Of a stretch of 48,921 bases of DNA, positions 36,365 through 40,437 are shown piece by piece. The notes below the pieces were generated by a model that ran no database searches, was not told the DNA's origin, and was given only the letters and a program-made list of their open reading frames with translations. Source of the stretch: Deltaproteobacteria bacterium (GTDB taxonomy: Bacteria; Myxococcota_A; Bradymonadia; REDH01); NCBI GenBank assembly GCA_007693585.1, contig REDH01000115.1:1-48921 (forward strand). Direction: 5' to 3'. A program made the translations under genes and the position numbers. Positions within the stretch are counted from its first letter, which is position 1; every line of letters begins with the position of its first letter.

Positions 36365-39300
36365 TCAGAAGGACCAGCGCAGGGTGGCGCTCAGGCTCGT
36401 TCCGGGGCGCACCTCCTGCAGGTTCACACTCCCCTGGCGCTCGACGGAGGACTGGTTGAGCAGGTTGCGGGCGACGAGGCGCAGTCGCCACTGCTCGGCG
36501 AAGTCCCACGTCGCCGTGAGATCGAGCTGATGAACCGGCTGCTCGTAGATGTCCGGCAGGCCGAAGGCGCCCACATCCCGGATCCGCGGACCGAAGACAT
36601 TGTAGTAGGTCACCAGCGCGAGCCCCGTTCCGTCGTGGCTCCAGCCGAGGTTCGCGTTGGCCACCCAGGGAGACTGACCGGCCAGCGGACGCCGTCGGTT
36701 CGTGGCGTTGCGAAGCTGCTCCTCCGAGAACTCCACCCGCGAGTGAACCAGCGTGAGGTTCGAGCCCACGAAGAAGTCGCTCAACGCCTCGTGAAGCGCG
36801 CCCAGTCCGACGCGTCCCTCCAGCTCCATTCCGAAGTTCGTCGCACCATCGATGTTGCGCCACTGCTGGTTGCCGTTCTGGTCCAGAATGGTCGACTCGA
36901 TCGGATCCTCGAAGACCTTCACGAACGCCGAGACCGCCAGAACATCGACGGCGCCGGGAAAGTACTCCAGACGCAGGTCCATGTTGTGGATGCGCGTCGT
37001 CTCGAGATCCGGATTCCCCTGGATACTCCGCCGGCGCACATAGTCCTGGAAGAGGAACGGGGCGACCTCGCGGACCTGCGGATAGGCCAGCGTCATCGCG
37101 TACCCCGCGCGAAGAAGCACGTCCTCCTGCAGCTCCCAGGTCAGATTGGCTGAAGGCAGCACGTGAAACTCCGTCCGCTCCGCCCCGGCTGCGCTCGCTC
37201 CTCCCCCCGCCTGCGCGAACGGGCTCGTGGCCTCGACACTCTGCCGAAACGTCTCGGCCCGTGCCCCCGTCGCCACTCGCACCGCGGGAAGCAGCCGAAC
37301 ATCCACCAGCGCATAGCCCGCCCCAAGCCACTGCTCGCTCTCGTAGCTGTCCGTCGGGGTCGTGACCTCCGACAGCTCCACCTGCGTGCCGATGTTCTCC
37401 GGAGCGAAGAGCGCCTCCGGCGGAAGGAGCCGCGTCTCCGGATCGCGACCGATGAAGTCGAAGCGAAAGCGACGCGCGTCGAAGGACCGCTGACTCACCC
37501 GGCCCGAACCACCCACCTTCGTGTGGAACCGATCGTGCCAGCGGCTCAGAAGGTCCACGCGGCTCCCGAGATCGAGCTGGGAGAGCTCCGAGAAGAACCG
37601 CTCGCTCGACCCCGGCGCGTTCCGCCACGCATAGCCCGCGCCACCCTCGATGTACGTCAGGTCGCGCGTGTCCGGCTCCGAACGACTGCCGAGCCCCAGG
37701 TTGACCTGCCAGTCCAGATCCGAGTCCGCCGGAAGCTGAGTATGGCGACCCAGAAGCTGCGTGAACCACAGCGAACGCTCGACCCAGCGGAAGGTCTGCT
37801 GCTCGATGTTCGCCGCCTCCGCGTCACTGAACCCCTCCACCAGACGCGTCGTCTGCTCTGCAGATCGGTTGACCAGAGTCACGAGCGTCAGATGATCGGT
37901 CCGGCTCAGCTCGAACGCCAGCGTTCCCAGGCCTCCCCACTGCGCCCGAACCGTTCCCCGCTCCTCCTCCAGGGTCGTCCGGGACACCACGCGAGCCTCC
38001 TCCCCGATGCCCTCCACCCGGGCCAGCCGGACACGGGCCTCGTCCACGTCATGGCTGTGGCTCCACCCCAGCGATACCAGATAGCCCATCGGCACACCGA
38101 GCAGCCGCGCCGGACCCCCCACGGTCGCGCCCAGCCGAAGCCCAGGGAGCGCCGTCCGCTCCTCCGGAGACCAGACGTTCGGGAACGACCGACCGATCTC
38201 CACAGCCTCCTCCGGCGTCACCGTCCGCCCCGGACGAACCGCACGATCCGCGGGCACCGCCGCGGGAAGCCGCCGCGTCCCGTCGTCCATCGCCAGCCAG
38301 TCCAGACGACCGCCCCCGTGGGTCGGCATCGACCGGAACGTGCTCCCCGTCTCGCCGCTCACCCCCACGCTCAGCTCCAGCGTGAAGTCCTCCGGAAAGT
38401 CGCGGGTCGTGATGTCCATCAGACCCCCGGCCCACGACGCCGGAAGGTCCGGCGTCGCCGTCTTCGTGATCGCCAGACCCGCCAGCACCGACGCCGGAAA
38501 CAGGTCGAGCTGAACCCCCGGAAAGTCCGGATCCAGCGACGGCACCATCGCACCGTTCAACAGCACGTTCGTGTAGCGATCACCCAGACCTCGCACATAC
38601 AGATACCGCCCGTCCACCAGCGTCGCCGCGACCACCCGTCGCGCCGAGTCGCCCGCAGAACTGTCTGGCGACCGAGCGATCTCCTCCGCGCTGATGCCGT
38701 CCGACACCGCCGCATTCTCCCGACGCTGGAGCATCTGCATCGCCGCCGAGGAACGATCCGCGCGCCCCTCCACCACGAACGTCTCCACGGCGTCCCGATC
38801 CACCCGGAGCGTCACCACACCCAGACTGCTCGCCTCCCCCGCCTCGACCGTGATCGAATACGCCTCGGGACGGTACCCCAGCGCGCGGATGCGCACGATG
38901 TACTCCCCTTCGGGAAGCGCGACGGCGAATCGACCATCCACCCCCGTGCGCACCGGACGGTCCACGCCGTCGATCAGAACCGTGGCCTCGAACATCGGCT
39001 GGTTGAACTCCCCATCGAGAACCAACCCCTCGAGACGACCCGGCAGGGCCGCGCCAGGGGACGCGTCCCGCACCGCCGGAACGGGCTCCGGCTCCTCCTC
39101 GGCCTCCTCCTCGTCGAACGCATCCCAGAAATCGTCCCAGTCATCGTCGTCGTCGTCGTCCCAGTCATCGTCGTCGTCGTCGTCGTCCCAGTCATCGTCG
39201 TCTTGAGGATCGCCCTCGTCCTCGACGCCATGGTCTTCCTCGAGACGCGAATCCGGGTCCGAGTCGATCAGGTCGCCCTGGTCAACGCTCTCGCCGTTGT

Positions 39301-39440
39301 CGGCGAGAAACGGCCCAAATGGGGGGGGGCTGTGCAGCGGCCCGTCGTGGCTCTCCCAGGCCGAGCAGAAGGGAGACGAGCGCCACGAGGAGGAGGCGCG
39401 CATCCGGACGGCGAATGGAACGACATACAGAAGTACGCAT
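36365..39440 (-). CDS. TonB-dependent outer-membrane receptor, out of frame at a C9 tract
   Basis: Domains in order: signal peptide starting at ATG 39440 (RLLLVALVSLLLGLG, cleavage near RAAAQ), an acidic Asp/Trp-rich linker, a carboxypeptidase-regulatory-like beta domain (LEGLVLDGEFNQPMFEATVL), a plug (VRGLGDRYTNVLLNGAMVPS, then ITKTATPDLPASWAGG) and a 22-strand-type barrel ending in the aromatic SATLRWSF. The signal peptide and the receptor are in different frames. The switch point is a run of nine C (39321-39329 on the - strand). With eight C the frames join and give 1024 residues. As read, translation from 39440 stops after about 50 codons. Possible explanations are phase variation, frameshifting or a sequencing error. 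It lies between tonB and the lipoprotein gene. Confidence 0.85.
39131..39205. repeat. In-frame GTC/GAC microsatellite in the receptor gene
   Basis: Three copies of a 24-27 nt unit, CCCAGTCATC followed by (GTC)n, starting at 39136, 39160 and 39187. On the coding strand it encodes alternating W and runs of D. Copy number can change in steps of 3 nt without breaking the frame. Confidence 0.8.
39321..39329. repeat. Nine-base homopolymer (C9 on the coding strand) in the receptor gene
   Basis: Nine G on the + strand, nine C on the coding strand, directly after the signal-peptide codons GCA CAG. It marks the exact point where the reading frames diverge. Confidence 0.9.
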
Positions 39441-39535: not shown

Positions 39536-40437
39536 TCAGTTCAGTCGGAAGGGCACGCGGTAGGTCTTCGCGACAGCGACGGCCTCGTCGTTGTGGTCAC
39601 GACCCGGCTCGTAGCGCCACTGGGCGAGGATGGAGATCACGTACTCGGCGAGCGCTTCGGGCCCGGAGCGAACTCGGCAGCCGCGCACATCCCCGCGCTC
39701 GGTGACGATGCACTGCACCACGACGAGCCCGGAGAGTGCGGCCTCGCGGAACTCCCGGGGGTAGTCGAAGTTGGGGAAGTCCACGCCGAGGGTGCCGGCG
39801 AGGACCGGCGCCACGTGCGTCTCCTCGAGGCGTACGGGCCGCCGTCGTTCGGGCTGTCGCCTCACCTGCTCCTGGGCCTCCGCGCGGGCCTGTCGTGTCC
39901 GGCGTCGGTCGACGCGTTCGCCCGGCTGCCGCGTACCGCGTTCGATCACGGGACCGGTACCGTCCTCGGATCCGCCGATGGCCTCCACGTCGAGCCGGTC
40001 GTCTTCCGGAGTGGGCGGCGGCTCGTCTTCCCGAGGTTCCGGTTCGGGCTCCGGCTCCGGCTCTGGCTCGTCCTCGGGCTCCGGTTCGGACTCCGGTTCG
40101 GGCTCCGGTTCGGGCTCCGGTTCCTGCAGGGGTTCCGGTTCGGGTTGCGGTTCGGGAGGGGGGGAGGTTCCTCTTCCTCCACTTCGGGTTCGTCGCGCAC
40201 GACGAGCTGCACGAAGCGGCTCTCGAAGGCCTGCAGTGCGTCTTCGCGCGATGGCGCGGGAACATGCTGCACGAGCCACCACACGGGGAAGGCCTGCAGG
40301 ATGAAGGAAAGACCGAAGGACGCCGCCAGGACACCGGAGAGGCCGAGAACGGAGGTGGCGAACACGAACAGACCGCGTTCGATCGCGTGTTCTTCCTTCG
40401 GGGGCGGGGCAGCACCGGGCGGGACGTATGCGGACAT
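39536..40437 (-). CDS. tonB: TonB energy-transducing protein, out of frame at a C7 tract
   Basis: The N-terminal frame from ATG 40437 gives a cytoplasmic tail, one membrane helix (about 22-50, [20 protein letters not shown]) and an acidic start of the linker ending EEEEPP. The C-terminal frame gives the Pro-Glu linker ([10 protein letters not shown]) and a TonB C-terminal domain ([20 protein letters not shown], then [20 protein letters not shown]). The span is 902 nt, not a multiple of 3. The two frames meet at seven C (40158-40164); eight would give one 300-residue protein. TonB couples the inner-membrane proton gradient to receptors such as the one encoded next. ExbB and ExbD are not in the window. 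Confidence 0.85.
40034..40156. repeat. Pro-Glu repeat in tonB
   Basis: Repeated CTCCGGTTCGGG-like 12-mers on the + strand encode (EP)n on the - strand. This is a typical periplasm-spanning TonB linker and a likely site of repeat-length change. Confidence 0.8.

Follow-up and report, generated by a model that had tools for sequence, protein, structure and literature searches.

Why should a tonB gene and the TonB-dependent receptor gene beside it each be out of frame at a run of C in the same genome? The locus lies in a 48,921-nucleotide stretch of DNA (the window), which is the complete contig C179 in the assembled genome of an uncultured bacterium related to lake myxobacteria (223 contigs, 4.97 Mb, 97.7% completeness). 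On the minus strand the gene order is tonB (from 40437), the TonB-dependent receptor (body 39320–36365) and a lipoprotein-like gene (36178–34856). This third member is in frame in the list of open reading frames, and its orthologues adjoin the receptor in two family relatives, G002 and G003. The arrangement is best explained as one conserved outer-membrane uptake cluster.

The preliminary description of this DNA placed the N-terminal membrane anchor and the C-terminal domain of TonB in different frames that meet at a C tract, and our analysis bears out both the break and its position. The anchor reading frame begins at an ATG at 40437 and reaches its stop at 39946 after 163 amino acids; the part of it belonging to TonB (40165–40437, minus strand) comprises a cytoplasmic start, the membrane anchor and the first, Glu-rich portion of the periplasmic linker. 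The remainder of TonB, with the Glu-Pro linker and the C-terminal domain (39536–40157, minus strand), aligns with the corresponding part in relatives but occupies another frame, which ends at 39536 and matches the TonB_C domain PF03544 with 39.1 bits against a Pfam cut-off of 24.6. Between the two parts, at the polyproline start of the linker, lies a C7 run (G7 on the plus strand) at 40158–40164. A Viterbi model of codon phase, trained on the same genome and given no location, called the frame change at 40143–40145, beside the run, and the anchor frame's own stop falls 196 nt beyond the modelled change. Translation confines the join to a few codons at C7, where Glu-rich sequence followed by Pro in one frame gives way to Pro followed by the Glu-Pro repeat in the other. 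Furthermore, the anchor (40171–40437) is weakly but significantly similar to that of a GltG/AgmX-type protein encoded on contig C17 of the same genome and in relatives, and is therefore not a chance open reading frame. A TonB energiser carries its anchor and PF03544 domain in the same reading frame; here that continuity is lost at 40158–40164, and the frame break itself is confirmed in the sequence. The gene otherwise shares with PF03544 proteins the anchor, Glu-Pro linker, C-terminal domain and an adjoining TonB-dependent receptor, and departs from them in its split frames and in the likeness of its anchor to the GltG/AgmX-type proteins of the family.

The receptor was likewise said to be broken at a C run, and it is. 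Translation and a scan of 5′ ends place a signal peptide at 39330–39440 (minus strand), with an ATG at 39440, a hydrophobic core and an AAA-Q cleavage-like site, out of frame with the receptor body. The two frames meet at a C9 run (G9 on the plus strand) at 39321–39329, immediately past the signal peptide. The body (36365–39320, minus strand) contains a carboxypeptidase-regulatory-like domain (PF13620), a plug (PF07715) and a beta-barrel (PF00593), has no internal stop and has syntenic orthologues in five relatives. The sign of the shift is opposite to that in tonB. This opposition fits independent slips, and neither a cause that only shortens runs nor a one-way recoding signal simply explains both breaks. 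Within the N-terminal part of the receptor, a GAC-type repeat at 39130–39203 encodes Asp runs with Trp (WDDDDDDD); its length could in principle vary without a change of frame, and relatives carry other acidic repeats here.

To place the breaks in an evolutionary context, we compared the five nearest relatives, which belong to the same family (no member of the same genus was found among the genomes searched). A scan of genome contigs returned matches only from these five metagenome-assembled relatives, in a collection that may omit the window's own record, and a search for a second strain, using the exact pattern surrounding the tonB tract, gave no match among the viral contigs searched. The N-terminus of the receptor is in frame in 5/5 relatives, with the same tonB–receptor arrangement; tonB keeps a single frame in four of the five and in the fifth, G002, is cut by a contig end. 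The longest G/C run in the tonB of those four is 5–6, and the first 300 nt of the relatives' receptors hold G/C runs of 4–6; where G002 is readable, no run exceeds 5. Thus both genes fit the pattern of a pseudogene in being disrupted here with intact orthologues elsewhere, while neither tonB nor the receptor displays the further stops or faster divergence of one. Identity of the receptor to that of the relative G001 is 40.7% for the window's genome (G000) versus 35.8% for G002, and the corresponding values for the C-terminal part of TonB are 45.5% and 42.9%. Divergence is not raised, which rules out long-standing decay. With no other damage, the breaks, if real, are recent, and any relaxation of constraint is very recent.

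The rarity of such breaks in this genome was assessed in a sample of 963,402 bases (19%), scoring coding G/C tracts of 7–11. In this sample the frame is kept across 214 tracts (154 of length 7 and 60 of length 8–11), against a single within-gene break at a scored tract, that of tonB, a contrast that makes the break more than chance. A further 88 tracts lie partly in non-coding sequence and were unscored there, and tracts less than 120 nt from the end of a stretch and runs above 11 were excluded. Frame or strand changes fall within 60 nt of 15 tracts, one of which is tonB; among the other 14, 12 were read by translation and taken as gene junctions, L048:1988 shares its junction with a tract that was read, and L051:2086 was judged only by its absence from the list of distant-stop junctions. 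When single-base changes were simulated in 120 tracts, the codon-phase model detected 113 of the shortened and 114 of the lengthened versions. Given this sensitivity and the 214 unbroken tracts versus one, homopolymers are not a general source of error here, and a general error of the assembly is ruled out. The earlier remark that longer tracts elsewhere leave their genes intact is supported by the 60 unbroken tracts of 8–11. The scan of 5′ ends, which detects only breaks behind a hydrophobic N-terminus, covered 95 nearby tracts, 84 of them without an intervening stop, and flagged 1/84, the receptor, whose signal-peptide-like stretch occurs only in the wrong frame. The tonB/receptor pair therefore stands out, its members being the only two exceptions in the sample. 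Tracts of at least 7 lie in or near both genes in 59 of 313 same-strand neighbour pairs, and because the window was picked for its breaks the pairing carries no probability. The model also listed frame changes lacking a run of at least 7, some of which were read by translation; one, around position 1695 of L114, lies in an apparent coding region with no homopolymer and could mark either a real frameshift or the junction of two genes.

CCC accounts for 48% of proline codons in this genome, and G/C tracts of length 7 occur at 208 per Mb versus 14 and 16 per Mb in two sampled family relatives, a roughly 13- to 15-fold excess driven by CCC/GGG codon use. Tracts are nonetheless rarer than under synonymous shuffling (159 observed versus 254 expected at length 7, and 48 versus 121 at length 8), and are therefore tolerated and not favoured. 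The two C runs are by-products of CCC-encoded proline that fall in the polyproline linker of TonB and the Pro-rich start of the receptor.

Other parts of the genome offer possible substitutes for the affected pair. A profile search returned seven matches to TonB_C (one falling short of the cut-off), eight to the plug domain and four to MotA/ExbB. Inspected by eye, the N-termini of the seven other plug-domain receptors are hydrophobic, in frame and free of tracts of at least 7, which rules out a genome-wide phasome of receptors. The other TonB genes have no tract at the anchor and are in frame where checked; the TonB_C place on C58 gave no coding segment. With other TonB proteins and receptors in the genome, the window's cluster can be dispensable. 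Overall, we regard the locus as a true frame break, probably the result of ordinary slips, in an unusual pairing, and we tentatively favor recent slippage indels at C runs that inactivated a dispensable uptake pair, with confidence a little short of even. Against this reading, tonB and the receptor are otherwise undamaged, and the assembly is strained at the Glu-Pro repeat just past the tonB tract.

Those same two observations feed the main rival, a local fault of the assembly, which we consider quite possible. In such a case a dip in local coverage, a mixture of strains or the Glu-Pro repeat next to the tract would have left the consensus wrong at one or both runs. Both genes would then be ordinary, as their intact and constrained appearance would suggest. 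Contigs C74 and C95 (L159 and L160) begin exactly with Glu-Pro repeats that are 78–81% similar to the one in tonB, and other tonB-like genes appear to be cut there; these contig starts, together with the contig end that interrupts tonB in G002, are the basis for the weight that we give to a local fault. In addition, frame breaks seen in a single genome are mostly ascribed to sequencing error or indel mutation, as far as the available text of the GeneTack study goes (PMC3711429). Such GeneTack singletons resemble the present case in having a frame transition in one genome that is absent in relatives; at the present locus, however, the change hits a pair of adjacent genes of one cluster, each at a C run. 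A technical origin would require two independent errors in neighbouring partners, with opposite signs, in a genome where the other 214 coding tracts of 7–11, including 60 above length 7, keep their frame, and where the remaining tracts of the window cause no breaks. A shared technical cause had been proposed at the outset; as uniform run shortening it is made less likely by the opposite signs and the 214 unbroken tracts, and it persists in the form of the local fault. Runs of poly-G or poly-C of at least 19 bases occur at five contig ends in the sample (C17, C21, C28, C107 and C128) and are probably artefacts of sequencing that the assembly retained; we take these runs to be the mark of two-colour short-read machines. 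A literature search on poly-G artefacts of such machines returned no paper. Short reads usually read a 7-base run correctly. If short reads were used here, as is likely, the tonB run would also usually be correct, which counts for real indels. The contig-end runs, of 19–40 bases, lie at L032 1–53, L092 8–42, L099 8495–8559, L107 1–20 and L114 18294–18328.

Biological control of the two runs is less probable. Phase variation, in which slipped-strand mispairing at the two runs, as contingency tracts, would turn tonB and the receptor off and on and the assembly would have caught both off, is in our judgement unlikely. Surface receptors are typical of the genes so switched, and the sample holds no breaks besides these two. 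Both C7 and C9 reach the usual cut-off for candidate tracts, G/C runs of at least 7 inside open reading frames, as given in the accessible part of PMC6321876. The TonB-dependent receptors HmbR and HpuAB of Neisseria meningitidis switch at poly-G according to the available section of PMC3786947, and share with this locus a G/C homopolymer in a TonB-dependent uptake reading frame and silencing by an off-by-one change. The same section documents length variation among isolates for HmbR/HpuAB, whereas the present locus is known from a single assembly with unconserved tracts; as far as that section extends, an energiser gene is among the two broken genes only here. A run of 7 is near the lower limit for switching, the tracts are absent in the five relatives where readable, the other receptors and TonB genes have no tract at signal peptide or anchor, and free switching at such lengths would leave many of the 214 tracts off. 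Tract lengths in the genome sample also do not exceed the prediction from codon usage, as those of a contingency locus would. Length differences among cells define phase variation; since tract conservation is lacking and such differences would here be putative, we do not file the locus as phase-variable. The coupled switch suggested in the preliminary description, or any purpose-built one, is unsupported: the tracts are missing in relatives, the C runs follow the 48% CCC usage, and the shifts are opposite. More doubtful again is a doubly switched operon in a free-living freshwater myxobacterial relative, with energiser and receptor as independent C-tract contingency genes; if true, most cells would be off, and ligand would be imported only by a small fraction of cells, those with both tracts in frame, an AND gate of two homopolymers. 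Our literature search found no phase-variable tonB with a poly-C tract, and we make no wider claim that none has been published. Very improbable is recoding, whereby the ribosome, or else RNA polymerase, would slip on the C run and so join the tonB frames, and some full-length TonB would be made. The tonB tract is a slippery run with a Shine-Dalgarno-like purine stretch upstream (duplex −9.3 kcal/mol), but this stretch consists of Glu codons and is equally strong at 26 of 420 coding C tracts of at least 6. No downstream structure exists at the run (z −0.37 to −1.17), and 87% of coding C tracts have a downstream fold at least as stable, which speaks against programmed frameshifting. The frame change is also not conserved among orthologues, with tonB in one frame in four relatives, and the receptor would require a shift in the opposite direction. 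The −1 ribosomal slippage raised earlier thus gains no support from structure or conservation, and terms for C runs were absent from the part of a recoding review available to us (PMC5009743). A strong hairpin directly downstream of the receptor C9 (39236–39320; z −2.6 versus shuffles) sits in coding sequence, and no recoding role is needed for it.

Under the favored reading of recent slippage indels, tonB and the receptor would each have been hit, in the assembled genotype, by a recent single-base change in the length of a C run. C runs would be the most slippery sites, hence the location of both breaks. The TonB product would end after 163 residues as an anchor without its C-terminal domain, so that the receptor would not be energised, and the receptor would be left without an in-frame signal peptide. 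The pairing may reflect dependence, with the loss of one partner leaving the other free to slip, and the loss would be tolerated thanks to the other TonB proteins and receptors. The sequence, both breaks, their rarity and the intact relatives are observed; from these we infer a change in the DNA of the cells, slipped-strand mispairing as its cause, the loss of function and this order of events. If the breaks are real, they illustrate the joint loss of an energiser and its receptor where a CCC-rich genome is most prone to slip. Phase variation is best known in pathogens, and real breaks would raise the question of whether it acts on the nutrient receptors of lake bacteria. Should the breaks instead be errors, the locus warns that good quality scores do not keep a genome free of false pseudogenes in Glu-Pro linkers. 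The GltG/AgmX-type protein whose anchor resembles that of TonB (L030, C17:40744) is FHA-like and kept across the family, and the resemblance suggests shared ancestry of the two kinds of anchor.
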